From contig NZ_PVEP01000001.1 in the NCBI RefSeq assembly GCF_002973535.1, positions 310,001-374,000 of the forward strand: a DNA stretch of 64,000 nucleotides. Reading direction: 5' to 3'. The notes under the pieces were generated by a model that was not told where the DNA came from, did no database searches, and saw only the letters and a program-made list of their open reading frames with translations. The DNA comes from Albidovulum denitrificans (GTDB lineage: Bacteria; Pseudomonadota; Alphaproteobacteria; Rhodobacterales; Rhodobacteraceae). Every line of letters starts with the position of its first letter. Within the stretch, counting starts at the first letter, position 1. Positions 23,396 through 49,859 of the stretch are shown in pieces. The translations under genes and the position numbers were made by a program.

Positions 23396-23405
23396 GCGCG
23401 TCACC

Positions 23406-23498
23406 TATAGCATTTCGGGTTTACACTGAATCAGAATTTGAACTTATTTCGTTCGAATTCTGATACTTGCTTTCTCGACGTAAACCCGAAACGCTTTA
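23406..23498 (-). repeat. 93-bp TA-flanked palindromic repeat (MITE-like), copy 1
   Basis: Bounded by TA at 23406-23407 and 23497-23498. Terminal inverted repeats carry GCRTTTCGGGTTTAC; the inner arms pair TCAGAATT-GAAC with GTTCGAATTCTGA around GAAATAA. It is in the opposite orientation to copies 2-4; read in reverse complement it is almost identical to copy 2. It lies between the start of mfd and the stop of the neighbouring membrane-protein gene, so it may affect mfd transcription. Confidence 0.9.
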
Positions 23499-23516
23499 TC
23501 CCGCCCGGCGGCGGTG

Positions 23517-24041
23517 TCAACCGAAGATGGCGATGTTGAAGTTCTGGAGCATCCCCCAGAAGGCGGTCACGAAGATGGAGATCATGCCGATCACCTGCAC
23601 CGTGAGGCGATGCACCGCCAGCCGCTTGTGCAACGCCTCTGCGGCATCGCCATCGGTGCGGATGCGGCGCGCGGTGCGGATGCTGAGGAACATCACCAGC
23701 GACATCGGCAGCAGGATCAGCGACAGCGCCTGGCAGAACTCCACATGGTAGACGAAGCCGAGCAGGAGGAGCGTGCTCATCCCGAAGGCCCAGAAGGCCA
23801 TCAGGATCAGCCCCGCCTCATCGGCGATGTAAAGCAGGCGCGAGACATTGACGCGGGTGATGTCGGCAAGGTCCGTTTCCGCCTGCCCGCCGACGCGCCG
23901 CGCCCGAAGGACCATGTCATAGGGAATACCAAGCACCCAATGCGAGGCCGAGGACCAGGTCACCGCAAGTGCAATCCAGTACCAGAGGTTCGAGAATGAC
24001 CGAAAGTCGATCAGCTCGAAGATCAAACGTGTTGGCTCCAA
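23517..24041 (-). CDS. Polytopic membrane protein, often named SufBCD-complex component
   Basis: This ~174-aa protein has about four membrane segments (roughly residues 18-38, 70-98, 103-122 and 145-168) and no enzymatic motif. Proteins of this size and layout in Rhodobacterales are frequently labelled component of SufBCD complex, but I see nothing that proves a link to Fe-S assembly and no suf genes are nearby. The start is uncertain: the reading frame opens with TTG at 24041 behind a GGCAGG-like site. It is divergent from hemB and followed by MITE copy 1. Confidence 0.65.
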   Translation of the reverse strand: MEPTRLIFELIDFRSFSNLWYWIALAVTWSSASHWVLGIPYDMVLRARRVGGQAETDLADITRVNVSRLLYIADEAGLILMAFWAFGMSTLLLLGFVYHVEFCQALSLILLPMSLVMFLSIRTARRIRTDGDAAEALHKRLAVHRLTVQVIGMISIFVTAFWGMLQNFNIAIFG

Positions 24042-24175
24042 TGCCTGCCCCCGGGAAGTCGATGCCTTATACGGCGTTTGGCGCGATGCTATCCGCCGGC
24101 TTCGGCGGTTTCCACCCTTGTGATAGGATAAAAACCGTGGCAGGCGAAAGGCCTATCCGAACGGAGAGAGCGCCC

Positions 24176-25171
24176 ATGACACCGTTTCACACCCCCTTCC
24201 CCGCCCTGCGCTTCCGTCGCTTGCGCCAATCCGCCGCACTGCGCGATCTGGTCGCCGAGGAACGGCTGAGCGTGAAGGACCTGATCTGGCCGGTTTTCGT
24301 GACCGACGTGCCGGGCGCGGATGTCGAGGTGCCTTCCATGCCCGGCGTGGTGCGGCGCACGGTCGAGGGCGTGGTGCGCGCGGCCGAAGAGGCGGCGGGC
24401 CTGGGCATTCCGGCGATCTGCCTGTTTCCCTACACCGACCCGGCCCTGAAGACCGAGACCTGCGAAGAGGCGTGGAGCCCCGACAACCTGTCGAACCGCG
24501 CCGTGCGCGCGATCAAGGCCGCGGTGCCGGAGATCGCGGTGATGACGGACATCGCGCTCGACCCCTATAACGCCAACGGGCATGACGGGATCGTGCGCGA
24601 CGGGATCATCCTGAACGACGAAACGGTCGAGGCGCTGGTGAAGATGGCGCTCGCGCAGGCCGAGGCCGGGGCGGATATCCTTGGCCCCTCGGACATGATG
24701 GACGGGCGGATCGGTGCGATGCGGGCGGCGCTTGAGGCGGCGGGGCATAAGGACGTGACGATCCTCTCTTACGCCGCGAAATATGCCAGCGCCTTTTATG
24801 GCCCGTTCCGCGATGCGGTGGGCGCGGCGGGCGCGCTGAAGGGCGACAAGAAGACCTATCAGATGAACCCCGCCAATGCCGATGAGGCGCTGCGCCTGGT
24901 CGCCCGCGATCTGGCCGAGGGCGCGGATATGGTGATGGTCAAGCCCGGCATGCCCTATCTCGATATCTGCCGCGCGGTGAAGGACAGCTTCGGCGTGCCG
25001 ACCTTCGCCTATCAGGTGTCGGGTGAATACGCGATGCTGAAGGGCGCGATCCTGAATGGCTGGGTCAAGGATGAGGTGATTCTCGAAAGCCTGATGTGTT
25101 TCCGTCGGGCGGGCTGCGACGGGGTGCTGACCTATTTCGCACCCGAGGTCGCGCGGCGCCTGAAGGGCTAA
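24176..25171 (+). CDS. hemB: Porphobilinogen synthase (delta-aminolevulinate dehydratase)
   Basis: This 331-aa enzyme condenses two 5-aminolevulinate molecules to porphobilinogen in tetrapyrrole synthesis. The Schiff-base lysines appear in SYAAKYASAFYGPFRDA and MVMVKPGMPYLD. The loop that carries zinc-binding cysteines in Zn-type enzymes reads TDIALDPYNANGHDG here, Asp-rich, so this is a non-zinc type as known for Rhodobacter. ATG 24176 follows GGAGAG; the in-frame region from 23969 is rejected. Its TAA stop (25169-25171) is formed by the TA edge of MITE copy 2. A -10-like TATACG occurs near 24066. Confidence 0.96.
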   Translation: MTPFHTPFPALRFRRLRQSAALRDLVAEERLSVKDLIWPVFVTDVPGADVEVPSMPGVVRRTVEGVVRAAEEAAGLGIPAICLFPYTDPALKTETCEEAWSPDNLSNRAVRAIKAAVPEIAVMTDIALDPYNANGHDGIVRDGIILNDETVEALVKMALAQAEAGADILGPSDMMDGRIGAMRAALEAAGHKDVTILSYAAKYASAFYGPFRDAVGAAGALKGDKKTYQMNPANADEALRLVARDLAEGADMVMVKPGMPYLDICRAVKDSFGVPTFAYQVSGEYAMLKGAILNGWVKDEVILESLMCFRRAGCDGVLTYFAPEVARRLKG

Positions 25172-25261
25172 AGCGTTTCGGGTTTACGTTGAGAAAGTAA
25201 GTATCAGAATTCGAACGAAATAAGTTCAAATTCCGATTCAGTGTAAACCCGAAATGCTATA
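25169..25261 (+). repeat. 93-bp TA-flanked palindromic repeat (MITE-like), copy 2
   Basis: TA at 25169-25170 and 25260-25261. The left TA plus the next A makes the hemB stop codon. Nearly identical to copy 1 in reverse complement. Removing the element and one TA restores CTAG at the junction, i.e. an original TAG stop. It may also fold into a hairpin at the end of the hemB message. Confidence 0.92.
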
Positions 25262-25518
25262 GGCGCAGGACTCCGGGCCGGTTCACCCGATCCGGGCCGC
25301 CCTTGCGGACCGGCGCCCCCGATGCCGTCGCTTGGGGTTTTTAACGAACTCTTTGGATCTACCGCCATAGAAAACAGGAACGGTTTTGTCCGTTCCCGCA
25401 TGGAGGGCGACGGATTGACCCAGTTCAATCGTAAGTTGGGGCGTTGCCACGATGGGGTCAAAAAGCTCTTATACCGAACTCAACCAGTTCGAACCTTCTT
25501 CATGTAACGAGTGTGCCC

Positions 25519-26649
25519 ATGGCCTATACTGACGTCATCAACGACTATACCAACGGCGCCACCGGAACCATCACGACCAGCAATGGCGGCACCGTCGGGT
25601 ACACCGTTACAGGAACCGCCACGAACCGGGACATCGGCACCAATGTAGGCGGTGCGGGCGTCACGCTAAATGGCGAGGATTATTTCGACGTTCACTTCAA
25701 CAACGAGGTCTCGGACGCGGTCCTGTTCATGACGGGAAGCGAGAACTACGAAGAATATTTTGTCCGCATCGACGGGGTCGTCGTCGATCTGAACACACTT
25801 ATCGCGAATGGCGACCTGACGATCACCAGCATTGGAACGCCGCCGATCATCACCGCCAGCGGTGGCATCGCAGGCGGCACCTCCGTTTACGACGGGTCCA
25901 GTTATGAACTGGTGTTTCACTTCCCGATCACCAGCATCGGGGTTTTCGGCTCCGGGGGCGGGACGAGCAACTGGGACTATTTCGAGGTTGGCATCAACTC
26001 CACCACCACCGTCATCTGCTTCGCGCAAGGGACAGCGATTGAAACCGACCATGGACCTGTCGCCATCGAGACGCTCGGCGTGGGGGATCTGGTCATGACA
26101 TGGGGCGGGGACGTCGCCCCCATCCGCTGGATCAGCAAGCGTGAGATCACCGCGCGCGGCCTGCATCACAATCCGGCCCTTTGTCCGATCAGGCTGTCGG
26201 CCGGAAGTCTGGGGACCGGCATTCCGAAGCGCGATCTTATGGTCTCGCCGCAGCACCGGATTCTGGCGTCCTCGGCCGTCGCGCGGCGGATGTTCGGGCA
26301 GCCAGAGGTCCTTGTCGCGGCGCACAGGCTTGTCGGGCTGCCGGGCATCTTCGTCGCGGATGAGGTGGAGGCCGTATCCTATTACCACATCCTGCTCGAC
26401 AGGCATGAGATTCTGGTGGCAGAGGGCTGCCCGGCGGAAAGCCTTTATCCGGGTCCCGAGGCGATGAAGTCGATCCCTTCCACGGTAAGGAAAATACTGT
26501 CTGCCGGGGTCCCAGCCCTTGCCGGGGACAACGGCCCGCAGCCGCCAGCCAGGATGATCCCGAAGGGCCACTGCCAAAGGCAGCTTGCCCGCCGCCTGCT
26601 GAAAAACACCAGACCCGTCCTTGAAACGGCCGACCTGCCGATGGGCTGA
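25519..26649 (+). CDS. Hint-domain protein
   Basis: This 376-aa protein has a Gly/Thr/Asn-rich N-terminal half (residues 1-165) that reads like a secreted beta-sandwich, then a Hint_2-type domain from Cys167 (VICFAQGTAIETDHGPVAIETLGVGD, given here in its parts: CFAQGTAIET, then GPVAIETLGVGDLV) through VSPQHRIL to about residue 320, and a basic tail. Hint domains can self-cleave at their first Cys, but the Rhodobacterales Hint_2 proteins are of unknown role and often secreted without a classical signal, possibly by type I secretion. No type I export genes or calcium-binding repeats are seen here. ATG 25519 follows a weak ribosome site. Codon use is less GC-biased at the 5' end. Confidence 0.75.
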   Translation: MAYTDVINDYTNGATGTITTSNGGTVGYTVTGTATNRDIGTNVGGAGVTLNGEDYFDVHFNNEVSDAVLFMTGSENYEEYFVRIDGVVVDLNTLIANGDLTITSIGTPPIITASGGIAGGTSVYDGSSYELVFHFPITSIGVFGSGGGTSNWDYFEVGINSTTTVICFAQGTAIETDHGPVAIETLGVGDLVMTWGGDVAPIRWISKREITARGLHHNPALCPIRLSAGSLGTGIPKRDLMVSPQHRILASSAVARRMFGQPEVLVAAHRLVGLPGIFVADEVEAVSYYHILLDRHEILVAEGCPAESLYPGPEAMKSIPSTVRKILSAGVPALAGDNGPQPPARMIPKGHCQRQLARRLLKNTRPVLETADLPMG

Positions 26650-26778
26650 GGCCGCGCCTGCCGCGCCAATTGTTGCCGGTGCTGACACAACAGGTAATGA
26701 CAGGGCGTGACGACTGACCTATAGATAGTGGTGAACCGGCCGCAAAAGGCCGGGCGAGGTCAGAGCGGAGGCTTTCAG

Positions 26779-27336
26779 ATGAACACGATTTCGCGCAGGG
26801 GTATGGTCCTTTCGGGCGGCGCCTTGCTGGGGCTTGCCGCCTGCGGCAACGGGATCGGCAGCCAGGGCGCGGCGAAGCTTGACGCCCGTGTCGATGCGAC
26901 GCGCGATTACCTGCGCAGCCGCTATCCGGGCGTGGCCGAGCTGATGGGCAAGGCCAATGGGGTCCTCTACATCCCGCTGGTGACCGAGGCCGGGTTCATC
27001 TTCGGCGGCGCCTATGGCCAGGGCGCGCTGCGGATCAACGATGTGACGGTGGATTACTATTCCGCGACGCAGGCAAGCTGGGGCCTTCAGGTCGGCGCCC
27101 AGCAATATGCCCATGCGCTGTTCTTCATGACGCCCGACGCGCTGGCCGATTTCCGCCGCGCCGAGGGTTGGGAAGCGGGCGCGGACGTCGTCTACGCCCT
27201 GCCCGATCGCGGCGGCGCGGCCGGGGTGGATACCACGACCTCACTGGCGCCGGTGATCGGCTTCGTCTTCGGCCAGTCCGGGTTCATCGCCGGGGCGACG
27301 GTCAAGGGGACGAAATACACCCGTATCATTCCGTGA
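26779..27336 (+). CDS. SYLF (YSC84-type) domain lipoprotein
   Basis: This 185-aa protein begins with a lipoprotein signal, LGLAAC (Cys at about residue 21), after a twin-arginine-like SRRGM start. The rest matches the SYLF/YSC84 lipid-binding family: a GVLYIPLVTEAGFIFGGAYGQG core, the YYSATQASWGLQVGAQQY stretch, and a C-terminal SLAPVIGFVFGQSGFIAG segment. Predicted to be anchored in the envelope and to bind lipids; its physiological role is unknown. ATG 26779 follows GGAGG-like bases at 26767-26771. It is followed by the second copy of the hairpin/CGGAGTATTT repeat. Confidence 0.85.
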   Translation: MNTISRRGMVLSGGALLGLAACGNGIGSQGAAKLDARVDATRDYLRSRYPGVAELMGKANGVLYIPLVTEAGFIFGGAYGQGALRINDVTVDYYSATQASWGLQVGAQQYAHALFFMTPDALADFRRAEGWEAGADVVYALPDRGGAAGVDTTTSLAPVIGFVFGQSGFIAGATVKGTKYTRIIP

Positions 27337-27355
27337 AGCGGGCGGGGGCCAGCCC

Positions 27356-27424
27356 GTCGTCCATTGGGCTTGAACCAATGGCGCACCAATGGACGACCCC
27401 CGGAGTATTTCGGCAACGAAGAAG
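27356..27424 (+). repeat. Intergenic hairpin plus CGGAGTATTT...AACGAAGAAG motif, copy 2
   Basis: A perfect 12-bp inverted repeat GTCGTCCATTGG (27356-27367) / CCAATGGACGAC (27386-27397) is followed by CGGAGTATTT (27401-27410) and AACGAAGAAG (27415-27424). It sits between two convergent genes. The hairpin sequence differs from copy 1 but the order of parts is the same. Confidence 0.6.
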
Positions 27425-27429
27425 CGCGA

Positions 27430-28302
27430 TCAGTCGGGCTTGCGCAGCCGTGCGATAAGGCTTGACGTATCCCAGCGGTTGCCGCCCATCGCCTGCACGT
27501 CCTTGTAGAACTGGTCGACCAGCGCGGTGACCGGCAGGCTTGCCCCGATCTCATCGGCGGTTTTCAGGCAGATCCCCAGATCCTTGCGCATCCAGTCGAC
27601 GGCGAAACCGTGGTCGAACTTGTCCTCGGCCATGGTCTTGTGGCGGTTGGCCATCTGCCAGGAGCCGGCGGCACCCTGGCTGATGACCTCGACCAGCGCC
27701 TCGATGTCGAGGCCCGCGCGGGTGGCGAAGTTCAGCCCTTCGGAGAGCGCCTGGACAAGGCCCGCGATGCAGATCTGGTTGACCATCTTCGCCATCTGCC
27801 CCGCGCCCGAGGGGCCAAGCAGGCGGCAGATGCGGGCATAGGCGGCGATCACGGGTTCGGCGCGGTCATAATCGGCCTCGGCGCCGCCGCACATGACGGA
27901 GAGGACGCCATTTTCCGCCCCGGCCTGACCGCCCGAGACGGGGGCGTCGACGAAGCCGATGCCGCTGTCGCGGGCCACGCCCTCAAGTTCGCGCGTAACG
28001 GCGGCGGAGACGGTGGTGTGATCGGTGAAGACGGTGCCGGGGTCCATGCCCGCGAAGGCACCGTCATCCCCCAGGCAGACCGCGCTGAGGTCGTCATCAT
28101 TGCCGACGCAGGCCATGACGAACTCCGCGCCCTTCGCCGCCTCGGCGGGCGTCGGGGCGGCGCGGCCGGGATGGGTCTCCACCCAGCGGCGGGCCTTGTC
28201 GGGCGAGCGGTTATAGACCGTCACCTCATGCCCCTTGGCCGCCAGATGCCCCGCCATCGGAAAGCCCATCACGCCCAAGCCAAGAAATGCCACCTTCACC
28301 AT
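27430..28302 (-). CDS. NAD(P)-dependent beta-hydroxyacid dehydrogenase (HIBADH family)
   Basis: This 290-aa enzyme has an N-terminal Rossmann motif FLGLGVMGFPMAGHLA (residues 5-20), the substrate motif DAPVSGGQAGAENG, and the catalytic lysine in GQMAKMVNQ. It belongs with 3-hydroxyisobutyrate, tartronate semialdehyde and glyoxylate/succinic semialdehyde reductases; the substrate cannot be chosen from sequence alone. ATG 28302 starts directly at the Rossmann strand. It converges with the SYLF gene and is divergent from the penicillin acylase gene. Confidence 0.87.
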   Translation of the reverse strand: MVKVAFLGLGVMGFPMAGHLAAKGHEVTVYNRSPDKARRWVETHPGRAAPTPAEAAKGAEFVMACVGNDDDLSAVCLGDDGAFAGMDPGTVFTDHTTVSAAVTRELEGVARDSGIGFVDAPVSGGQAGAENGVLSVMCGGAEADYDRAEPVIAAYARICRLLGPSGAGQMAKMVNQICIAGLVQALSEGLNFATRAGLDIEALVEVISQGAAGSWQMANRHKTMAEDKFDHGFAVDWMRKDLGICLKTADEIGASLPVTALVDQFYKDVQAMGGNRWDTSSLIARLRKPD

Positions 28303-28431
28303 CGCCAACCCCCTTGCGCATTGCGTCCATTCGCTAACTGTCCTAGTTAACCGCCCTGACCCGGCCGTCAACCGCCCGTCGCGGCGCTTCAGCGGCCTTT
28401 CGCAGCCTCACGGGGATCTGGCGCTTCGACC

Positions 28432-30909
28432 ATGCTGACCGCTTTTCGCTGGCTTTTGCGCATCTTCGTGGCGATGGCGGTCCTGACCGTCGCGGCCCTA
28501 GTGCTGGTCTATTACTTCGCCTCGCGATCCCTGCCCGAATATACCGGCGATTACGAGGTGGAGGGGATTTCCGCCCCGCTTGAGATCGTGCGCGATACGG
28601 CGGACGTGCCGCATGTCTTCGGTGCGACGGATGAGGATGTCTATTACGCGCTGGGCTTTGCCCATGCCGAGGACCGGCTTTGGCAGATGACGATCCTGCG
28701 CCGGACCGTGCAGGGGCGGCTCTCGGAGGTGTTCGGGGTCGAGACGGTCAGGACCGATGAGCTGATGCGGCGGCTTGACCTTTACGGGCTGGCGACAAAA
28801 TCGGTGGCGGCGCAGGACCCCGACGTGCAGCGCGCTTTGGAGGCCTATGCAAAGGGCGTGAACGCCTGGATCGGGATCGTGAACAGCCAGGCCAAGGGGC
28901 GCGGCGCGCCGGAGTTCTTCCTGTTCAACAACGAGATTTCCTATTGGCAGCCGGCCGACAGCCTCGCCATCCTGAAGCTGATGGCCTTCAAGGCCTCGAC
29001 GCAGATTTCCACCGAGGTCCTGCGGGCGCGGTTGTCGCTTCTCGATACCGGCTGGGCCGAAGACCTGATGCCGGAGATCAGCGGGCCGGGGACCGCCGCC
29101 CTGCCCCCTTACGCGAGCCTCGTCCCCGACGTGCCGCGTAGTTTCGCGGCGCTGGGGGGGGAGAATCTGCCCTTCCTGCCGCGCATCGCGGCACCCTTTG
29201 GCGGCGCTTCGAACGCCTGGGCGGCGGCGCCGTCGCGGTCGGCCGCCGGGGGCGCGCTTTTGGCCAACGACCCGCATGTCGATCTTTCGGCGCCCTCGCT
29301 GTGGTATCTGGCGCGGCTGGAACTGACCTCGGGCGGGGTGATCGGGGCGACGATACCGGGGGTTCCGGCGGTGCTGGCCGGGCGGAATGCCGATCTTGGC
29401 TGGGGCATCACGACCGCCTGGGCCGACGATCAGGACATCAAGCTTGAGGAGCTGAACCCCGCCGATGCGACCCGCTACCGCTCCCCCGAGGGTTGGAAGC
29501 CGTTCGTGACCCGCAAGTCGATCATCACCGTCAGGGACGCGCAGCCGATCACCGTGACGCTGCGCTGGACCGATAATGGCCCGGTCCTGCCGGGGACGCA
29601 TTTCGACCTTGCCCCCATCACGCCGCCGAACCATGTCGCGGCGCTAAGCTGGACGGCACTTGACGGGGCGGACCGTTCGATGACCTCGGCGATCAGACTG
29701 ATGCGGGCGAAGACGCGGGACGAAGGGATCGCTGCGGGTGAGGATTTCGTCGCCCCGGCGCAGAACGTGGTGATGGCCGATCATGACGGCATCGCCATGG
29801 TGATGTTCGGCGCCATGCCGGGGCGCGATCCGAAGATGCAGGGCCAGGGGCGGTTGCCGTCGCTGGGCTGGATGGCGGAGAACCGCTGGGGGCCGCGCCT
29901 GCCCTATGCCGACAACCCGCGCTTCACCGATCCGACCGGCGGGATCGTCGGGAACACCAACAACAAGACCATCGACCGCAGCTTCCCGCGCCATGTCACC
30001 TTCGACTGGGGCGATACCCAGCGGGTGCAGCGCTGGACCCGGCTGATGCAGGAACGCGAGGTGCATAGCCGCGAAAGCTTCATCGCCGCGCAGCTTGACA
30101 CCACATCGCCCACCGCGCGCACGCTTCTGCCGCTGATCGCCGCCGATCTGTGGTTCACGGGCGAGGCCGCGCCCGAAGGCACGCCGGAACGGCTGCGGCA
30201 GGACGCGCTGGGCCTTCTGGCCGAATGGGACGGCGACATGAACGAACACCTGCCGGAGCCGTTGATCTACGCCGCCTGGGTCCGCGCGCTTCAGACCCGC
30301 CTGCTGCGGGATGAGCTTGGGCCGCTTTCGGACAGCATCACCTCGGTCCAGCCACTCTTTATCGAGCGGGTCTATCGTGACGTGGGCGGCGCGGCGCGCT
30401 GGTGCGACATCATGCAATCGGCGCCGGTGGAAACCTGTACCGAGATCGCGCGGATGGCGCTGGACGACGCGCTTTTGCAGTTGTCCGAGAAATACGGGCG
30501 CAATGTCGAAAGCTGGCGCTGGGGCGATGCGCATCAGGCGATGCAGGACCACGAGGTGTTGGGGAAATTCCCGGTGCTGAAATGGATCGTGAATATCCGC
30601 CAGTCGACCAGCGGCGGCGACAATACGCTGAACCGGGGGCTGACCTCGGGGCGCGGGCCGGACCCTTACATGAACGTCAACGGGGCGGGCTATCGCGGGG
30701 TTTACGATTTCGCCGATCCCGACAGTTCGGTCTTCATCATCTCAACCGGCCAGTCGGGCCATCCGCTCAGCCGCTATTACGACGATATGAGCGAGCTTTG
30801 GCGGCGCGGCGAATATGTGCCGATGTCGCTGGACCCGGCGCTGGCGCGGGCGGCGGCGACGGGGATCACCCGGCTGCACCCGGCGGGCGCCGCGCGGGCC
30901 GCCAACTGA
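28432..30909 (+). CDS. Penicillin acylase family Ntn hydrolase
   Basis: This 825-aa protein has an N-terminal membrane/signal segment (about residues 8-32), an alpha-subunit region with ATDEDVYYALGFAHAEDRLWQM, and an autoprocessing site before Ser of SNAWAAAP (preceded by FGGA, about residue 260), which would become the catalytic N-terminal Ser of the beta subunit. The C-terminal part has NRGLTSGRGPDPYMNVNGAGYRGVYD and FIISTGQSGHPLS, typical of the family. It should be a periplasmic amidase cleaving acyl amides; some relatives degrade acyl-homoserine lactones, others penicillin-like compounds. The substrate is unknown. It stands alone, followed by a repeat-rich gap. Confidence 0.9.
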   Translation: MLTAFRWLLRIFVAMAVLTVAALVLVYYFASRSLPEYTGDYEVEGISAPLEIVRDTADVPHVFGATDEDVYYALGFAHAEDRLWQMTILRRTVQGRLSEVFGVETVRTDELMRRLDLYGLATKSVAAQDPDVQRALEAYAKGVNAWIGIVNSQAKGRGAPEFFLFNNEISYWQPADSLAILKLMAFKASTQISTEVLRARLSLLDTGWAEDLMPEISGPGTAALPPYASLVPDVPRSFAALGGENLPFLPRIAAPFGGASNAWAAAPSRSAAGGALLANDPHVDLSAPSLWYLARLELTSGGVIGATIPGVPAVLAGRNADLGWGITTAWADDQDIKLEELNPADATRYRSPEGWKPFVTRKSIITVRDAQPITVTLRWTDNGPVLPGTHFDLAPITPPNHVAALSWTALDGADRSMTSAIRLMRAKTRDEGIAAGEDFVAPAQNVVMADHDGIAMVMFGAMPGRDPKMQGQGRLPSLGWMAENRWGPRLPYADNPRFTDPTGGIVGNTNNKTIDRSFPRHVTFDWGDTQRVQRWTRLMQEREVHSRESFIAAQLDTTSPTARTLLPLIAADLWFTGEAAPEGTPERLRQDALGLLAEWDGDMNEHLPEPLIYAAWVRALQTRLLRDELGPLSDSITSVQPLFIERVYRDVGGAARWCDIMQSAPVETCTEIARMALDDALLQLSEKYGRNVESWRWGDAHQAMQDHEVLGKFPVLKWIVNIRQSTSGGDNTLNRGLTSGRGPDPYMNVNGAGYRGVYDFADPDSSVFIISTGQSGHPLSRYYDDMSELWRRGEYVPMSLDPALARAAATGITRLHPAGAARAAN

Positions 30910-30970
30910 GGCGCCGGGCGCGCGACAATATCGCGCCCGTGCAACGACTGCAAAGCACCAGATAGTTCCG

Positions 30971-31366
30971 CCTTTTTCGTCAGAAGCATTGCCTCTGACC
31001 TGGCGGCCTACGTCGAAGCGGCCCTTCGCTGCGATGGTCATGAGCGTCGGTTGTGCGGGACTTTTCTGCCGTTTGAAAGGCCGGGCATTGCCCGACCGCG
31101 GGTGGGCGTAGGGCGGGCTGTTCGGCAGCACTTTATGGTGAGATCCACAGCCAACGGCTGTTCGGGGCAAGACGGTGCCGTATCGCCCGCCCGGTGGGGC
31201 GGTCGGGCGATGCCCGGCGGCGCGGGACGCGCCTTGGTTCCGGGCAAGAGGGAATGACTGCGAAGGCCTCAGCGCCGCCGTTCGCCGCGGCGTGGATGAA
31301 CGGCAGCTTCGGGTGCTGATGGGCGCCACCTGGCCCGTGAAAGGCAAGCCTTTCTGACGAAAAAGG
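30971..31366. repeat. 396-bp element with perfect 15-bp terminal inverted repeats
   Basis: CCTTTTTCGTCAGAA (30971-30985) is repeated in reverse complement as TTCTGACGAAAAAGG (31352-31366). Inside, an 18-bp arm at 31082-31099 pairs with 31199-31216 with one G-T wobble, and further GC-rich arms lie between. No credible protein is encoded; short frames here look like chance. It has the form of a non-autonomous mobile element or a large folded RNA, unrelated to the 93-bp family. The remaining part of this 715-bp gap (30910-31624) shows only the leader of the next gene. Confidence 0.7.
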
Positions 31367-31624
31367 TAATCCGCCTCCGCGCTGAGACTTTGCTCCCTGT
31401 TTCCAAACGATATTTCTCCGCGCCGGAGGCAGAACTGTGTGCTGCCGCCAACGACTGGGTGTCGCGTGGTGCCTTCGACGCGAAAGGGCTGCAACCATAC
31501 GAAAAATTCGCTATGCTCGGCTGGCGCGGGGACGGTGCGGAAGGATTTTCATGACGACGCCTATTTGCACGATCTTCGGCGGCCGGGCCGCCCGCGCGGA
31601 ATTTGTGTCAAAGGCCGTGACCCC

Positions 31625-32629
31625 GTGACCGATCCCGCCCCCCTGCCCGTCCCGACCCTGAGCCTCGTCATCGCCGCCTATAACGAAGAGGACGTGCTGC
31701 ACATCCTGTTCGAGCGGCTTGAAACCGTGATGGCCGGGCTTGGCGAAAGCTATGAGATCGTCTGCGTCAACGACGGCAGCCGCGACCGCACGGCCCAGAT
31801 CCTGAACGCCGCGCATGAGGCCGATCCGCGGATCAAGGTCATTCACCTGGCGCGCAATTTCGGCAAGGAGCTGGCCCTGACCGCGGGCCTCGACTTTGCC
31901 ACCGGCAAGGCGGTGATCCCTCTCGATGCCGATCTTCAGGACCCGCCGGAACTGATCGCGGATTTCCTGCGGCTCTGGCGCGAGGGCTATGACGTCGTCT
32001 TTGCCGTGCGTGAGGCGCGCGACACCGACAGCTGGCTGAAGCGCACGACGGCGGGGGCGTTCTATGCCACGCTGGGGCGCATGTCGAATGTGCGCATCCC
32101 GGCCAATGCGGGCGATTTCCGGCTGATGGACCGCCGCGTGGTCGATGCGCTGAAGCAGTTGCGCGAACGCAACCGCTTCATGAAGGGGCTGTTCTCCTGG
32201 GTCGGGTTCCGCCAGACCTCCATCCCCTATCGGCGGCCCGAACGCGCGGCGGGCAAGACCAAGTTCAACTACTGGAAGCTGTGGAATTTCGCGCTGGACG
32301 GGATCACCGGCTATTCCACCCTGCCCTTGCGGATCGCGGGCTATTCCGGCCTGATCTTCGCGCTTGTGGCGATGATCTACGGCCTTTTTCTGCTGCTGAG
32401 GACAGTGGTCCTTGGTGTCGATCTGCCTGGCTATGCCTCGATGATGGTGGCGGTGATCTTCATGGGCGGCGTGCAGCTTGTCGTGCTGGGGATCATCGGG
32501 GAATATCTCGGCCGCATGTATGATGAGGCCAAGCAGCGCCCGCTTTACGTCGTCGACAGCGTCAAGGGGCTTGAGACGCCGCCGCTCGTCGCCGTAGCCC
32601 TACCGCAGCCGGTGCGGGAGAGGGCATGA
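31625..32629 (+). CDS. GtrB/DPM1-like polyprenyl-phosphate glycosyltransferase
   Basis: This 334-aa GT2 enzyme has LSLVIAAYNEEDVL at the start, VNDGSRDRT, the DADLQDPPE (DxD) motif, ANAGDFRLMDRRVVDALKQL, and two C-terminal membrane spans (about residues 238-262 and 273-296). It probably transfers a sugar from UDP- or GDP-sugar to undecaprenyl phosphate on the inner face of the membrane. The GTG at 31625, with AAGG about 10 bp upstream, is chosen because the family N-terminus begins there. Its stop overlaps the start of the next gene (ATGA), coupling it to a GtrII-type glucosyltransferase. No GtrA flippase gene is seen. Confidence 0.87.
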   Translation: MTDPAPLPVPTLSLVIAAYNEEDVLHILFERLETVMAGLGESYEIVCVNDGSRDRTAQILNAAHEADPRIKVIHLARNFGKELALTAGLDFATGKAVIPLDADLQDPPELIADFLRLWREGYDVVFAVREARDTDSWLKRTTAGAFYATLGRMSNVRIPANAGDFRLMDRRVVDALKQLRERNRFMKGLFSWVGFRQTSIPYRRPERAAGKTKFNYWKLWNFALDGITGYSTLPLRIAGYSGLIFALVAMIYGLFLLLRTVVLGVDLPGYASMMVAVIFMGGVQLVVLGIIGEYLGRMYDEAKQRPLYVVDSVKGLETPPLVAVALPQPVRERA

Positions 32630-34452: not shown

Positions 34453-34456
34453 AGGG

Positions 34457-35482: not shown

Positions 35483-35524
35483 GCGCCCTCCCCCTCACCG
35501 CGAAAACCGGGGCCATGATCCCCG

Positions 35525-35553
35525 CTGAAACCTTCGTCCCGCCATGCTATAAT
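35525..35553 (+). promoter_or_regulatory. Promoter of sugar ABC transporter operon
   Basis: CTGAAA (35525-35530), 17 bp, and a perfect -10 TATAAT (35548-35553). Transcription would start near 35560, just upstream of the operator pair, so a bound LacI protein would block it. Confidence 0.65.
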
Positions 35554-35572
35554 GCCGCCTTCGGGGACTGCA

Positions 35573-35629
35573 ATAAAACGTTACAAAAATCTCTTGCCGC
35601 ATCAAGAGAGATTTTGTAACGATTTAAAA
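35573..35629. promoter_or_regulatory. Paired LacI-type operator sites
   Basis: Two copies of the motif TTTTGTAACG(T/A)TTTA face each other: the first reads on the minus strand around 35573-35588, the second on the plus strand at 35612-35626. They form the ends of a long inverted repeat whose arms are 35580-35596 and 35603-35620 (one-base slip). Central CG within TAACG(W)TT is a LacI-family trait. Position after the promoter suits repression. Confidence 0.65.
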
Positions 35630-35654
35630 AGCCATAAACCAATGGGAGGAAATC

Positions 35655-36911: not shown

Positions 36912-36921
36912 CGCCCTCCTC

Positions 36922-36980
36922 CTGCGGGGCCTTCTCCCGGCCCCGCAGCCTGACCGGCCCCGGCATGAGGGGGCCGGCAC
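36922..36980 (+). promoter_or_regulatory. Two intercistronic stem-loops after the binding-protein gene
   Basis: A perfect 10-bp stem CTGCGGGGCC (36922-36931) / GGCCCCGCAG (36939-36948) with a 7-nt loop is followed by a CCGGCCC / GGGCCGG stem (36954-36980). Such hairpins stabilise upstream mRNA in transporter operons (for example malE-malF), giving more binding protein than permease. There is no T-tract. Confidence 0.65.
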
Positions 36981-37002
36981 ACCCTTCGGGAGGTAACGGG
37001 AC

Positions 37003-38759: not shown

Positions 38760-38762
38760 GTC

Positions 38763-39875: not shown

Positions 39876-39879
39876 GGCG

Positions 39880-40815
39880 ATGGCGGACACAACGCTTTGC
39901 CATCTGCGGTCGCGTTTCGGACGGGGGACCGTCCGGGCGCTGTCGGGCGCGCTGGTCGATCTGGAATTCGATCTCGGCGGGCGGGTGATCCGCCCGCTGG
40001 CCTCTGCGCCATGGGGCGTGTTGCCGCCGATGGCGGACCCGCAACCCGCCGCCCATCTGACGGCGCTCGGGGGCGAATGGCCCTGTGTCCCCTTCGGCCG
40101 CAGTTCCGCCGACCCGGTCAAGCACGGGCATGGCACCGATACCGACTGGCATCTGATCGCGGCGGGACCGGCGCAGGCAACGCTTGCCATCGACTATCCC
40201 ACGGGCCACGCGGTCCGGCGGCTGGAACGCACCGTCACGCTTTCGGACGACGCCCCGCGCGTGGAATTCAGCCTGACCATCCACGCCACCCGTGCCGCCA
40301 CGATCCCCGTCGGCCTGCACCCGATCTTGGCCTTTCCCGACCATGGCACCCTGCGCCTGACGCCCGCGGCCCATGGCGCGATCCGCACCGCGCCCGCATC
40401 CCTGGCCCCCGCCAACGCCTCCCTTGCCCCCGATCAAGCCATCGGCCCCGACGGCATCGCGCGGCGGCGTGATGGCACCACCACCTGTCTCTGGGATCAG
40501 CCGGGGCGGCAGGGCGAGGACCTGATCCTTGTCCAGAACTGCGCGGGAGGTGTGGAGGCCGACGACGGCACCACCCTCACCCGCCTGACATGGGAAGCCA
40601 GCGCCCTGCCCCATCTCCTCATCTGGATCGCCAATCCCGGCCTTGGGCAGGAACCCCGCCTGAAGGGCTTTCGTGGCCTCGGGCTTGAACCCGTCGCGGC
40701 CCATTTCGACGCCACGCCCGCGGGTCAGGGCCTGACCCTGTCGCCCGACCGCCCGACCATCATCCGCTATGCCATCGACTGCCGACCCAGCCGCCCAAAG
40801 GAGCCCCGGCCATGA
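39880..40815 (+). CDS. Aldose 1-epimerase family protein
   Basis: This 311-aa galactose-mutarotase-like protein has a beta-sandwich character with a SLTIHATRAATIPVGLHPILAF segment carrying the active-site His and a later GLGLEPVAAHFD acid region. It would interconvert alpha and beta anomers of the incoming sugar. It follows the ATPase by 4 bp and overlaps the next gene by 4 bp, placing it firmly in the sugar operon. The substrate is likely the same sugar that the isomerase uses. Confidence 0.82.
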   Translation: MADTTLCHLRSRFGRGTVRALSGALVDLEFDLGGRVIRPLASAPWGVLPPMADPQPAAHLTALGGEWPCVPFGRSSADPVKHGHGTDTDWHLIAAGPAQATLAIDYPTGHAVRRLERTVTLSDDAPRVEFSLTIHATRAATIPVGLHPILAFPDHGTLRLTPAAHGAIRTAPASLAPANASLAPDQAIGPDGIARRRDGTTTCLWDQPGRQGEDLILVQNCAGGVEADDGTTLTRLTWEASALPHLLIWIANPGLGQEPRLKGFRGLGLEPVAAHFDATPAGQGLTLSPDRPTIIRYAIDCRPSRPKEPRP

Positions 40816-41492
40816 ACCGTTCCGACGTCAACGAAATCCTGCTATCCGCCGACCGCTTCATCCGCTCCTTCGGCTATGTCCTGCCGCCCTTCGCCTACTG
40901 GACGCCCGATCAGATGAAAGCCGCCCCGCATGGCGAGATCGTGCGCCGCGCGATGGGCTGGGACATCACCGATTATGGTCAGGGCAGGTTCGAGGAGCTG
41001 GGGCTGTTCCTTTTCACCGTGCGCAACGGCCTGACCGCCGACCTGCGGACCGGCGGCGGCATGGTCTATGCCGAAAAGATCATGATCAGCCGCGAGCGTC
41101 AGATTTCCCCCATGCACCGCCATTTCCTCAAGACCGAGGACATCATCAATCGCGGTGGCGGCGATCTGGTGCTTGAACTTTTCATGGCGGGCGAAGACGG
41201 CACCATCGACCGCGACGCCGAGGTCAGCGTGCTGGTCGATGGCAGCCGCAGGCGGCAGAAGGGCGGCGAACACCTGCGCCTGAAGCCCGGCGAAAGCGTC
41301 ACCCTGACACCGACGGTCTGGCATGCCTTCTGGGGCGAAAACGGTGACGTGCTGATCGGTGAGGTCTCTACCGTCAACGATGACAGCACCGACAACTGGT
41401 TCGAGATGGACATCCCGCGCTACACGAAGATCGCCGAGGATACCGATCCGGTGCATCTTCTGGTGTCGGATTACGCGACCTGGCTGGGCTAA
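40812..41492 (+). CDS. D-lyxose/D-mannose isomerase family protein
   Basis: This 226-aa cupin-fold sugar isomerase matches the D-lyxose isomerase family (Lyx_isomer). Metal-type residues appear in SPMHRHFLKTEDIINRGGG (two His and a Glu) and in the second cupin part LTPTVWHAFWGE. Relatives convert D-lyxose to D-xylulose and D-mannose to D-fructose with Mn2+. As last gene of the ABC transporter operon, it suggests the operon imports D-mannose or D-lyxose. No dedicated kinase is in the cluster. Its TAA stop (41490-41492) is formed by MITE copy 3. Confidence 0.87.
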   Translation: MNRSDVNEILLSADRFIRSFGYVLPPFAYWTPDQMKAAPHGEIVRRAMGWDITDYGQGRFEELGLFLFTVRNGLTADLRTGGGMVYAEKIMISRERQISPMHRHFLKTEDIINRGGGDLVLELFMAGEDGTIDRDAEVSVLVDGSRRRQKGGEHLRLKPGESVTLTPTVWHAFWGENGDVLIGEVSTVNDDSTDNWFEMDIPRYTKIAEDTDPVHLLVSDYATWLG

Positions 41493-41582
41493 GGCGTTTC
41501 GAGCTTGCGTTCGGTAAGTAAGTATCAGAATTTGAACGAAATAAGTTCGAATTCCGATTCAGTGCAAACCCGAAATGCCATA
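41490..41582 (+). repeat. 93-bp TA-flanked palindromic repeat (MITE-like), copy 3
   Basis: TA at 41490-41491 and 41581-41582. The most diverged of the four copies, especially in the left terminal repeat (GTTTCGAGCTTGC in place of GTTTCGGGTTTAC). The left TA forms the isomerase stop codon; without the element the junction would read CTAA, i.e. an original TAA stop. Confidence 0.9.
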
Positions 41583-41591
41583 AGGCCGGGG

Positions 41592-41783
41592 TCAGGCCCC
41601 GCCGCCGCGCGTGTGGCTGACAAAGACCCAAAGTGCGTATAGTCCCGCCGCCGCGAACAGCATCGCCCAGCCGGGGGAGCCGAAGACAAGTTCCACCACC
41701 GCCCAGAGAAGCGCCAGCCCGACAACCGCGACGCGGACCCAGACGGGCCGGAAGAACGGGTGGTCGGGATCGAGGAGTTTCAT
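41592..41783 (-). CDS. Small two-span membrane protein
   Basis: This 63-aa protein has a short start MKLLDPDHPFF and two hydrophobic stretches (about residues 16-34 and 38-56), ending in a small Gly-rich tail. A similar MKLLDPDHPFF-type small protein is, as far as I recall, common in Rhodobacterales, with no known function. The ATG at 41783 follows AAAGG. It is 10 bp beyond MITE copy 3 and converges on the sugar operon. Confidence 0.7.
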   Translation of the reverse strand: MKLLDPDHPFFRPVWVRVAVVGLALLWAVVELVFGSPGWAMLFAAAGLYALWVFVSHTRGGGA

Positions 41784-41939
41784 GGGCGGGGCCTTTCGGG
41801 GCTGGCGCGGGGCGCATGAAGATTGCCGCGTAGCGCTTTGATTTTCAATCGTTCCGGCCGCAGAGGTGCGCGACCGTCCCGCCGAACTCCCCCAAAGTTA
41901 ACCCCGTCACGGCGTCCCTGTCCATCCGCTTCGCCCAGA

Positions 41940-41976
41940 TAAAAAAACCGCCGCATTCCCTTGCGGGGTGCGGCGG
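41940..41976 (-). terminator. Rho-independent terminator (leftward)
   Basis: On the minus strand the stem CCGCCGCACCCC / GGGAATGCGGCGG with a GCAA loop is followed by seven T. It lies 109 bp past the stop of the 40-aa gene at 42085-42207 and probably ends that message, or a short RNA from a TATATG promoter near 42040. The stretch 41784-42084 otherwise holds nothing I recognise. Confidence 0.75.
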
Positions 41977-42084
41977 GGAAGTGGCGATTTCCGACATCCG
42001 GGCGCTTGGGCTTGGGGAAGCCGCGTGACAGGGGACAGGCGCATATACCGGCGGAGAACCGCGAGGCAGAAAACCGTGAAAAAC

Positions 42085-42207
42085 TCAGATCAGGTTGGGC
42101 AGATGCAGCGCGACGATCAGCATCGCGACCAGCGAGGCAACCCCGGCGGCGTCGCGCGCCAGCGTGTCGCGGTTGCGAAGGATGACGGATTTGATGTCCT
42201 TGGCCAT
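42085..42207 (-). CDS. Very small single-span membrane protein (40 aa)
   Basis: Forty residues starting MAKDIKSVILRNRDTLARD, then a hydrophobic helix (about residues 21-40) ending HLPNLI. A good ribosome site GAGGA is 7 bp upstream of ATG 42207. A charged N-terminus and one membrane helix are consistent with a real small envelope protein. I do not recognise a named family. It is upstream of the leftward terminator at 41940 and downstream of recG on the same strand, separated from it by 105 bp. Confidence 0.6.
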   Translation of the reverse strand: MAKDIKSVILRNRDTLARDAAGVASLVAMLIVALHLPNLI

Positions 42208-42312
42208 GCTCTGTCCTCATTCAGATCGTCTTGTTGCTTATTTGTTCTCATATCGGAACCGATCTGTAAAGAACTTTTTAAGAACATTTGCGGACAAAGC
42301 GGAACGAAGCGG

Positions 42313-46661
<4,349 letters not shown>

Positions 46662-46718
46662 TCAGGCAGGCCAGACAGCGATAACGTGGCCCACCCCGCC
46701 TGTCCAGAAGCCGGTCAG

Positions 46719-47330
46719 CTAGCCAAGCCGCAGCCGAAGAAGGCGTGGCGCGACCCGGCCAAGGGGCGGCGGCAGGCCGGTGGCGTCGAAGGGATCGGCC
46801 CCCTCGATCCGCCAGCGCGGGAAGGCGCGGGCAAGCGCATCCTCGTCCAGCCCGCGCGGCAGCGGCCCTCGCCGTCCAGGCGCCCAGACCAAAAGGACCA
46901 GCGCCGCGCCCGGCGCGGCCAGCGCCGTGATCCCCGCCGCCGCGGCGGCCAGATCGCCGGGCGAAAGCCCGTGCAAAGCACCGAAATCCCAGAAGAAATC
47001 GAACATGCCAAGGGCCATCGCCCCTTCAAGACGGGTCAGATCTGCCTGACAGAAGCGGACCGAAACCCCGGACGAGGCGGCCCTTTGCCGCGCCTGGCGC
47101 AGCGCACCGGGAACATTGTCGACCCCCGTCACCTGCCAGCCGCGCCGGGCGAGGTCGACCGACCAATGCCCGCGCCCGCAGCCGATGTCGAGCGCCCGCC
47201 CCGGCCCGCCGCGCGCGACCGTGACCGCGTCGAAACAGGCCGCGACCTGGCGCGAGGCGACCGGATGGGTCGCCGCCGCTTCCCAGGGCGTCAGCCCCAG
47301 ACGATAGGCTATCTTGAAAAACAGGCTCAC
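46719..47330 (-). CDS. Class I SAM-dependent methyltransferase
   Basis: This 203-aa protein has the SAM-binding motif I ALDIGCGRGHWS (about residues 46-57), an acidic end of strand 2 (VTGVDNVPGAL), and a later FCQADLTRLEG, so a class I Rossmann methyltransferase fold is clear. No substrate motif is visible. It precedes ligA on the same strand by 72 bp and follows ctrA, with both neighbours unrelated in function. Confidence 0.8.
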   Translation of the reverse strand: MSLFFKIAYRLGLTPWEAAATHPVASRQVAACFDAVTVARGGPGRALDIGCGRGHWSVDLARRGWQVTGVDNVPGALRQARQRAASSGVSVRFCQADLTRLEGAMALGMFDFFWDFGALHGLSPGDLAAAAAGITALAAPGAALVLLVWAPGRRGPLPRGLDEDALARAFPRWRIEGADPFDATGLPPPLGRVAPRLLRLRLG

Positions 47331-47417
47331 GGCGGCAAAGGATAGTCACCGCCCGGCGCCGTGAACAGCCGTCACGAAAGGCCCCGGCGGTCCCCCGCCG
47401 AAGCCCGTGGCATTACC

Positions 47418-48131
47418 TCAGGCGCCGACGGCGAGCTTGCGCGGTGCCATCTCGCCCATCGGTTCGCGCAGCACATAGCCGCGGCCCCAGACGGTCTCGA
47501 TATAGTTCTCGCCGCCCGTCGCCTCGGCCAGTTTCTTGCGCAGCTTGCAGATGAAGACGTCGATGATCTTCAGCTCCGGCTCATCCATGCCGCCGTAGAG
47601 ATGGTTCAGGAACATCTCTTTGGTCAGCGTGGTCCCCTTGCGCAGGCTCAAAAGCTCAAGCATCTGGTATTCCTTGCCGGTCAGATGCACCGCCTGCCCG
47701 TCCGCCTCGACCGTCTTGGCGTCGAGGTTGACAGCGATCTTGCCGGTATGGATCACCGATTGCGCATGGCCCTTGGACCGGCGGATGATCGCATGGATGC
47801 GCGCGATCAGCTCTTCCCGGTGGAACGGCTTGGTCAGATAGTCATCGGCGCCGAAGCCGAAGCTGCGGACCTTGTTTTCGGTGTCATCCGTCCCGGTCAG
47901 GATCAGGATCGGTGTGTCCACCTTGGCCATCCGCAACTGGCGCAACACCTCATGCCCGGTCATGTCGGGCAGGTTGAGGTCCAGGAGGATCAGGTCGTAG
48001 TCGTAAAGCTTCGCCAGGTCGACGCCCTCTTCGCCCAGGTCGGTGCAATAGACATTCAGGTTCGCGTGGCCCAGCATCAGCTCGATACTGCGCGAGGTGG
48101 TCGGGTCGTCCTCTACCAACAGAATTCTCAT
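47418..48131 (-). CDS. ctrA: Cell-cycle response regulator CtrA
   Basis: This 237-aa OmpR-type regulator has a receiver domain with the acidic pair EDD (8-10), phosphoacceptor Asp51 (LLDLNLPDM), and KPF lysine, then a winged-helix DNA-binding domain (about residues 125-225) with [17 protein letters not shown] and [11 protein letters not shown]. The sequence is that of CtrA, controlling the cell cycle in Caulobacter and motility and gene-transfer-agent production in Rhodobacterales. A CtrA-like box lies 53-67 bp upstream, suggesting self-regulation, and the inhibitor gene sciP is directly upstream. Confidence 0.96.
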
Positions 48132-48183
48132 CTGGCGTACTCCACATTAATCCCTCGATCACGGAGAGCTTGGCTCAGATTGG

Positions 48184-48198
48184 TTAACCACAAGTTAC
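48184..48198 (-). promoter_or_regulatory. CtrA-like binding box upstream of ctrA
   Basis: TTAA (48184-48187), 7 bp, TTAC (48195-48198) differs by one base from the CtrA consensus TTAA-N7-TTAA. It lies between sciP and ctrA, 53 bp before the ctrA start, so autoregulation is likely. Confidence 0.5.
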
Positions 48199-48225
48199 TG
48201 GTACGCGGGCCTTCCGCGAATCTAC

Positions 48226-48504
48226 TCACGGTTGTCGGTAACGCTGGATCGCGGTAACTTTGAGGCCGCTTTCGCCATATTTCGTCACCGCGGCCCGCCA
48301 AAGCTCAAACTCCTCCTCGGACAGCGCGTAGCGTTCAAGCGCCTCGGTCAGCGGCAAGAGCCCACAGGTCACCGCCTGCACGACGCGGACCTTGCGGCTG
48401 GCCACCCAGCGGCGGGTATTTTCCGGCGGCAGGTCCGCCCGTGTCAGGATCGTGCCATCCGGCAGCGTAACGGCCCTTGGCCCGTCGATTTTCTTCAGGT
48501 ACAT
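48226..48504 (-). CDS. sciP: SciP (DUF1153) inhibitor of CtrA
   Basis: This 92-aa helix-turn-helix protein matches DUF1153/SciP: MYLKKIDGPRAVTLPDG, TRADLPPENTRRWVASRKVRVVQ (seen in parts: LPPENTRRWV, then ASRKVRVVQAV), and LTEALERYALSEEEFELWRA. In Caulobacter SciP binds CtrA and blocks its activation of target promoters. Its gene directly precedes ctrA on the same strand. Length is normal (about 90 aa). Confidence 0.92.
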   Translation of the reverse strand: MYLKKIDGPRAVTLPDGTILTRADLPPENTRRWVASRKVRVVQAVTCGLLPLTEALERYALSEEEFELWRAAVTKYGESGLKVTAIQRYRQP

Positions 48505-48626
48505 GTCTCACCCCTTGGTCTTCACCCGGGGACAAACCTTGACGCGCAGCCTTAAGGACGGGTGAAACCGGACATTGTGAGTGTTTCGGATTTTCCTATA
48601 TTCCTACCGATCCGAAGGAGAAAAAG

Positions 48627-49769
48627 ATGGCGCTCGATCATGGCCAACTGAATTCGCTGGGCTTTTCCAAGGCCCCCGCCGACACGCGGGTCGTCGTCGC
48701 CATGTCGGGCGGCGTGGACAGTTCCGTGGTCGCCGCGATGCTGAAGGACGAAGGCTATGACGTCGTCGGCGTGACCTTGCAGCTTTACGATCACGGCGCG
48801 GCGCTGGCCAAGAAGGGCGCCTGCTGCGCCGGTCAGGACATCCACGACGCCCGCCGCGTGGCCGAGGCGATGGGGTTCCCGCATTATGTCCTTGATTACG
48901 AAAACATCTTCCGCGACGCGGTGATCGACGAATTTGCCGACGCCTATCTGGCGGGCGCGACGCCGGTCCCCTGCATCCGCTGCAATGAGAGGGTGAAGTT
49001 CAAGGACCTGCTGGCAACCGCCAGGGACCTTGACGCCGATTGCATGGCAACCGGGCATTACATCCAGCGCAAGCTGGGTGAGGCCGGGCCGGAACTGCAT
49101 TCGGCCGCCGATCCGAACCGCGATCAGAGCTATTTCCTTTTCTCCACCACGCCGGAACAACTGGCCTTCCTGCGCTTCCCGCTGGGCCATCTGGCGTCGA
49201 AAACCGAAACGCGGGCGCTGGCGGCGAAATACGGGCTGTCGGTCGCCGACAAGCCCGACAGCCAGGACATCTGCTTTGTCCCGAACGGCAATTATGCCAG
49301 CGTGATCGAAAAGCTGCGCCCCGGCGCCGCCGATCCGGGGGAGATCGTGGATATGGAGGGCAATGTCCTTGGCACCCACCGGGGCGTGATCCATTACACC
49401 ATCGGCCAGCGCCGCGGGCTTGGTATCGGCGGGCTGGAAGACCCGCTTTACGTCGTGCGGCTGGACCCCGATGCGCGCCGCGTCATCGTCGGCCCGAAAG
49501 AGGCGCTGTCGACCCGCATCGTTCCGGTGCGGGAGATCAACTGGCTGGGCGACGGGGCGTTCGACGCGCGCGCGGAATGGCCGGTCTCGGTCAAGGTCCG
49601 CTCAACCCGCCCGCCGCGCCCGGCGGTGATCCGGCCCTTGTCGCCGACAACGGCAGAGGTGGAGCTTCTGGACCCCGAGGAAGGCGTCAGCCCCGGACAG
49701 GCCTGCGTCTTCTACGAAACCGGCGGCAGCCGCATCCTTGGCGGCGGCTGGATCTGGCGCGGGTACTAA
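48627..49769 (+). CDS. mnmA: tRNA-specific 2-thiouridylase
   Basis: This 380-aa enzyme makes 2-thiouridine at position 34 of Lys, Glu and Gln tRNAs, using sulfur from the cysteine desulfurase relay. The PP-loop motif SGGVDSS is at about residues 28-34, catalytic cysteines appear in [11 protein letters not shown] and QDICFVP, and ATGHYIQR marks the N-type pyrophosphatase core. AAGGAG precedes ATG 48627. The TAA stop (49767-49769) is created by the edge of MITE copy 4, which also forms the stop of convergent lpxB. Confidence 0.96.
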
Positions 49770-49859
49770 GGCGTTTCGGGTTTTCGTTGAGAAAGCAAGT
49801 ATCAGAATTCGAACGAAATAAGTTCGAATTCTGAGTCAGTGTAAACCCGAAATGCTTTA
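49767..49859 (+). repeat. 93-bp TA-flanked palindromic repeat (MITE-like), copy 4
   Basis: TA at 49767-49768 and 49858-49859. Inner arms TCAGAATTCGAAC / GTTCGAATTCTGA form a perfect 13-bp stem. The left TA starts the mnmA stop codon, while the right TA ends the lpxB stop codon read from the other strand, so one insertion separates two stop codons that must once have shared a single TA. Confidence 0.93.

Follow-up and report, generated by a model that had tools for sequence, protein, structure and literature searches.

A 93-bp palindromic mobile element, probably a miniature inverted-repeat transposable element, is frequently found in stop codons of Albidovulum denitrificans

A stretch of 64,000 nucleotides from Albidovulum denitrificans, hereafter the window (C1:310001-374000 of a genome of 4,107,985 bases in 23 contigs), was analysed for a short palindromic repeat, which the initial annotation had described as four TA-flanked copies of 93 bp. 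This description held for all four copies, each of them being 93 bp long at the annotated position, with TA at both ends in its own orientation and an inner stem around a GAAATAA loop. Copy 1 (23406-23498, reverse strand) lay just upstream of mfd, while copies 2 (25169-25261), 3 (41490-41582) and 4 (49767-49859) were on the forward strand, with copy 4 lying between the convergent genes mnmA and lpxB. The right-hand terminal repeat that had been annotated was present in copies 1, 2 and 4, and the left repeat of copy 4 showed one change (GTTTTC). Copy 3 was the most diverged of the four, with the left arm GCGTTTCGAGCTTGC. No Rfam family was matched in the window.

Three of the four copies occupied a stop codon, as had been proposed. 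In particular, the first three bases (TAA) of copies 2, 3 and 4 were the stop codons of hemB (25169-25171), the D-lyxose isomerase gene (41490-41492) and mnmA (49767-49769), respectively, and the right end of copy 4 (TAA on the other strand) also provided the stop of lpxB (49857-49859). The accompanying claim that these insertions spared the proteins was likewise upheld, since the genes looked full length from the reach of their Pfam matches and the end positions of their homologues (counted as distinct matches, not genomes). The hemB gene (24176..25171, +), encoding delta-aminolevulinic acid dehydratase, matched PF00490 over residues 12-327 of 331 (profile 3-316/317), and 10 of its 19 homologues ended at the same codon, with seven more within one codon. 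The D-lyxose isomerase gene (40812..41492, +) covered the whole PF07385 profile (1-222/222) and shared its end codon with 6 of 11 homologues, the others ending at +1 (one), -4 (three) and +15 (one). For mnmA (48627..49769, +), a tRNA 2-thiouridylase gene, the matches to PF03054, PF20259 and PF20258 extended to residue 376 of 380, and 14 of 23 homologues had the same end codon, followed by six within one codon and three at +3. The lpxB gene (49857..50999, -) matched PF02684 over profile positions 1-350/374, with the same end codon in 7 of 20 homologues and the other 13 ending one to seven codons later. Pfam matches reached to five residues or fewer from the end in hemB, the D-lyxose isomerase gene and mnmA. 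The insertions at these three sites therefore struck native stops, or nearly so.

When one copy was used as a query against the genome, 40 of 111 candidates were scored. Moreover, searching the 4.1-Mb genome for a 17-base pattern of the element end, at most two mismatches being tolerated, gave 109 forward and 111 reverse matches, compared to 2 and 0 for a control pattern, from which a number of about 110 copies was inferred, chance being excluded. A set of 78 distinct copies with flanks was obtained from 104 raw matches after removing duplicates, with about 30 further copies and a 49-bp copy lying outside the set. Among the 78, the length was 93 bp in 71 copies, 94 bp in six and 92 bp in one, the search having admitted only 91-95 bp; when the two ends could lie anywhere from 30 to 200 bp apart in 20 fetched stretches, 20 of 21 copies were again 93 bp long and one had 49 bp. 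The 71 copies of 93 bp diverged from the consensus by a mean of 5.8 positions (range 0 to 13). The consensus had no long open reading frame in any of the six frames, being short and non-coding as is characteristic of miniature inverted-repeat transposable elements (MITEs). An autonomous copy was also sought in 20 stretches with seemingly unpaired or widely spaced ends, taken from the first 100 end matches listed, and none was found among them, these stretches holding ordinary copies and the 49-bp copy. On C3, two ends separated by 1.3 kb proved to belong to separate copies. The 49-bp copy (L224, G000:C1:249400-251400, bases 985-1033) kept both ends and lacked the inner stem. Clusters were present as well, with three copies within 1.4 kb at G000:C5:64359-65739 and two copies 58 bases apart at G000:C1:423455-423698.

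The element consists of two stacked stems. Positions 4-24 pair with 70-90 in the outer stem, which forms the terminal inverted repeats typical of MITEs, and positions 35-48 pair with 56-69 in the inner stem, leaving 10 bases bulged out on the left side and seven in the loop. RNA folding of copies 2, 3 and 4 (copy 2 on both strands) gave predicted energies from -31.8 to -43.2 kcal/mol, with z from -5.2 to -10.0 relative to shuffled sequences. A GANTC site occurred where the outer and inner stems meet (element positions 67-71) in 68 of 78 copies, which may be a by-product of pairing.

The mobility of the element was evidenced by two empty sites. At the site of copy 1, no insert was present in 19 of 21 relatives of the genus, the net difference in length being exactly 91 bp in 11 of the 21 relatives, 90 bp in four and 76-77 bp in another four. 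The clearest empty site read CACC-TA-TCCCGCC, with a single TA in place of TA-element-TA. An independent second case was provided by a copy in the relative G020, which was absent from orthologous sites with flanks reaching 92% identity, leaving CCC-TA-GATAGG; among 16 distinct empty-like sites, the net difference was 91 bp in six, 90 bp in three, 92 bp in three and 79-80 bp in four. Clean empty sites were limited to these two cases, given that no examined relative had both flanks of copy 2 or copy 3 and that gap lengths varied at copy 4. The element is therefore mobile, inserting with a TA duplication, and the annotated view of a transposed non-autonomous element with such a duplication is supported by the comparison with relatives. 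Copies are also inherited, as one site was common to the relatives G001 and G006 with the same flanks.

Matches were detected in 8 of the 21 relatives, all belonging to one Defluviimonas-like genus. Outside the genus, one family member among 39 searched showed a 28-base match (E about 0.001). Named genome contigs were also scanned for the exact pattern, which returned 28 stretches, all of them from Defluviimonas sp. WL0050 and the metagenome genomes WOFB24 and 8_bin.76. Plasmid and phage records had no match to the element. The distribution is patchy within one genus, then, and hardly extends beyond it. As expected of a MITE, the copies were many and dispersed and their presence varied between relatives (about 110 copies here, with 8 of the 21 relatives matched).

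A C or T preceded the left TA in 69 of the 78 copies, and a G or A followed the right TA in 75. The same bases flanked the 26 copies located away from stop codons (C or T before in 24, G or A after in 25), and the target is thus YTAR, reflecting a preference of the enzyme itself rather than a by-product of stop codons. Furthermore, among the copies between tandem (++) genes, the downstream start was 26-48 bases past the right end in 14 of 23, as if this end were near a promoter -10 region.

The ends of the genes adjacent to the 78 copies were called with a home-made, simple gene finder based on codon usage. The gene stop coincided with element bases 1-3 in 49 copies, and with the right end only in three more, giving a total of 52. 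Thus, two thirds of the copies examined in this GC-rich genome were located within a neighbouring gene's stop codon. When any frame was allowed to enter the left end, the 50 best-scoring cases were all in frame 0, stopping at bases 1-3. Of the 49 left-end cases, 36 had an intact right TA followed by G (TAG, 24) or A (TAA, 12), which means that a stop existed before the insertion. No predicted gene spanned a copy (0/78), although this is a weak test: the element itself contains stop codons, and a disrupted gene would be called as two halves. Eight of the 78 copies were flanked on either side by coding-like sequence of the same strand, which would fit neighbouring genes. In other genomes, a gene ended at the left end in 22 of 59 raw matches and at the right end only in three, a weaker support because this uncleaned set includes false matches, such as six inside genes that were unlike the element.

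To set these counts against the supply of targets, 20 background stretches (464 kb) were taken, their choice away from many known copies making a slight bias possible, in which 38 YTAR sites fell in stop codons, 165 in intergenic positions and 86 more inside genes. The 52 of 78 copies at stop codons clearly exceeded the 38 of 203 non-genic YTAR sites (Fisher P-value of about 6e-14). Convergent neighbours were likewise found for 47 of 78 copies, as against 38 of 203 background sites. These excesses bear on the reading that transposed copies are retained at gene ends as a module, supplying a stop together with an RNA 3′ end or a two-way terminator between packed convergent genes, which we hold to be quite improbable. 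It is favoured, apart from both counts, by the strong hairpin and by the orientation of the element: of 40 copies touching a single stop, 37 had their left end towards the gene. Moreover, a gene ran into 15 copies from their right side, and six of these had an end changed to a stop codon, compared to 2 of the 63 others, a difference that suggests selection on the end of the protein.

The pairing of the stems gave evidence in both directions. For 20 aligned copies from several genomes, changes on both sides affected 8 of 35 pairs (19/500 shuffles as high) and the covariation score was 0.105, compared to 0.082 in shuffles (4/500 as high), again on the side of a gene-end module, whereas further pair types were not above shuffles (252/500). 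This amounts to moderate evidence that the pairing is conserved between subfamilies, bearing in mind that kinship can inflate such scores. Within this genome, on the other hand, singleton changes were no rarer in the stems (42 over 70 sites) than in the bulge and loop (8 over 17 sites). Of the 42 stem changes, 28 broke their pair, and both results count against the module. The integrity of the hairpin was also equal in stop-codon copies and other copies (32.7 and 32.8 intact pairs out of 35, respectively), and at copy 4 the sole terminator-like match (inner stem, minus strand) was near chance (1 against 0.5 in shuffles). The module reading is further weakened by the fact that the replacement of another hairpin motif at gene ends failed as a general rule. 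We read these patterns as a pairing that movement of the element would require and that is not protected once it has inserted. No strand preference of RNA pairing is claimed, given that the excess of G-U over A-C cells (230 vs. 53, + strand) came from columns 7/87, 20/74 and 21/73. A bolder proposal, with the transposon targeted to stop codons or selectively kept in them as a portable gene end, restoring the stop with its own first three bases and supplying a shared hairpin 3′ end for packed convergent genes, likewise seems unlikely.

Overall, it is very probable that these repeats are a family of non-autonomous DNA transposons (MITEs), palindromic DNA of 91 bp inserted in trans at YTAR with duplication of the TA. 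A transposase acting in trans would recognise ends of the AAAGCGTTTCGGGTTT type and insert the 91 bp into the TA of YTAR, duplicating it. As the left end begins with TAA, insertion in that orientation would re-make a stop at once, while the consensus in the opposite orientation adds seven codons before TGA. It is mobility, and not a function in the host, that would maintain the hairpin, and stop codons would be favoured partly through their harmlessness and partly for another reason. Harmlessness would explain the scarcity of copies inside genes.

Several results weigh against this interpretation. To begin with, the excess at stop codons persisted within convergent gaps (43 of 47 copies at a stop, compared to 10 of 36 YTAR sites; P-value of about 1e-9), which is not fully explained by harmlessness. 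The stop-codon share also showed no clear difference between young and old copies, being 15 of 24 copies at a distance of 4 or less, 13 of 22 at 5-6 and 18 of 25 at 7 or more, so that no progressive loss of harmful insertions was apparent. Furthermore, at the site of copy 1, two sister-like relatives (G012 and G014; L097 and L098) had about 110 bp of other sequence starting from the same CTA. In the insert of G014, 35 bases resembled the element core, with none of 500 shuffles as high, and that of G012 showed a weak likeness to it (24/500 shuffles as high), which could possibly reflect an older, related insert or repeat family at this site. Finally, no autonomous partner with matching ends was found in this genome through DDE_3, DDE_Tnp_1 or Y1, other transposase families not having been searched. 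The missing partner was not treated as excluding a MITE, because the partner is often not known for such repeats, according to the available sections of PMC2229807.

As to the mobiliser, the initial annotation had favoured a transposase of the IS630/Tc1 type, a proposal that the searches did not support. No DDE_3 gene was present in this genome, and the search for an IS630-family transposase with matching ends was negative in this genome and its 21 genus relatives. DDE_3 matches occurred in 4 of the 22 genus genomes, and the six fetched loci contained only scattered 13-mers with up to three mismatches to the element ends, none of them at the one full-length gene, in G001. The copy-rich relatives G020 and G013 had no DDE_3 match at all. 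An IS630/Tc1-type transposase since lost from this genome is still a real possibility, somewhat short of an even chance, given the TA duplication at the empty sites, the one full-length DDE_3 match in G001, which also carries copies, and a palindromic form and copy number like those of RUP, whose ends are described in part of PMC2229807 as similar to IS630-Spn1.

IS5-type transposases offer a second candidate. The genome had four DDE_Tnp_1 matches at three loci, including one gene in two pieces, while DDE_3 genes were absent here and rare in the genus. YTAR is a target for IS5-type elements. No inverted repeat like the element ends was found around the DDE_Tnp_1 loci of this genome, to which that search was confined, and this counts against the candidate. 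The IS5/IS427-group elements of Paracoccus are mostly listed with 2-bp duplications in the portion of PMC3281130 consulted, which favours such an origin and also means that the TA alone does not point to IS630. Mobilisation by an IS5/IS427-group transposase instead of IS630/Tc1 is a tentative option that we judge rather unlikely. Lastly, the palindromic form and the extragenic position at gene 3′ ends recall REP-like palindromes moved by a Y1 transposase (RAYT/IS200-type) through single-stranded DNA. This has only a very slight chance of being correct, as Y1_Tnp was absent from this genome and matched 2 of 22 genus genomes (G017 and G012), neither with a detected copy. Moreover, the insertion looks like a TA duplication, and Y1 enzymes are not known to make such a target duplication.

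These copies form a new family within the MITEs, a kind of element already known, and were compared with other repeats by description. No papers on such repeats in this genus were found in PMC. Among known repeats, BOX of Streptococcus pneumoniae has boxB as a further module, and Correia elements of Neisseria have TA flanks and ends starting with TATAG. Nearest in form is RUP of S. pneumoniae, which, as described in parts of PMC2229807 and PMC3049150, has inverted ends, a TA target and an excess between convergent genes; with 107 bp and 108 copies, it is close to the 93 bp and about 110 copies found here, a likeness by description and not by sequence. RUP ends resemble IS630-Spn1 (PMC2229807, in part), whereas no such partner was found for the element, and gene-knockout insertions are reported in the sections available for RUP, while none could be clearly recognised in the set of 78. 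Nearest in position is BOX: within the excerpts of PMC3049150, 58 genes overlap a BOX and 36 of them take their stop codon from it, at the very 3′ end of the gene and with no strong evidence of truncation. BOX also shares the excess between convergent genes. BOX is modular (boxA, boxC; PMC3049150, in part), unlike the rigid 93-bp unit described here, with its left-end TAA mostly in one orientation.

Nearest in idea is the mycobacterial MIRU, apparently mobile and seated at a gene border with little harm, as presented in part of PMC12548453. The same sections place MIRU at start codons with an open reading frame coupled to the gene, in contrast to the present element, whose copies are located mainly at stop codons and whose consensus lacks any long open frame; a MIRU-style search with DTGA gave no match. 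Correia elements share the high copy number, the MITE type and the inverted ends (PMC10969869 and PMC2229807, in part), but they are described chiefly ahead of genes, carrying promoters and, in one example, an IHF site, according to the excerpts of PMC10969869, while the element is mainly at gene 3′ ends. Finally, the CIR repeat of Caulobacter is an alphaproteobacterial intergenic repeat with GANTC, resembling by description the site of the 68 of 78 copies; the available part of PMC2229807 presents it as arms and linkers with an unclear mechanism of mobility, whereas empty sites exist for the element.

With its many countable copies, the family illustrates how a repeat of high copy number may multiply in a genome that is gene-dense and GC-rich while leaving genes intact. 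Its TA target is scarce outside genes and stop codons are part of the harmless supply, so that the excess over this supply (52/78 vs. 38/203) makes target choice and selection directly testable against each other. In addition, the element could serve as a strain marker for the genus.

Some further observations concern the surroundings of the copies in the window. Between mnmA and lpxB, in the place of copy 4, three stretches from relatives (L161, L163 and L182) had a different hairpin of the AAATATCCC...GGGGATATTT type. The idea that the element replaces a GGGRTATTT hairpin at gene ends was rejected as a general rule, as this motif was rare, with 0 to 2.0 occurrences per 100 kb in the seven genomes sampled. 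A protein of 378 amino acids with a Hint_2 domain is encoded downstream of copy 2 (25513-26649). The mfd gene (19934..23404, -), with the Pfam matches TRCF, CarD_TRCF_RID and DEAD, holds copy 1 in its leader, where the duplicated TA rebuilds a TAGGTGA stretch resembling a ribosome-binding site before the start (23395-23406).

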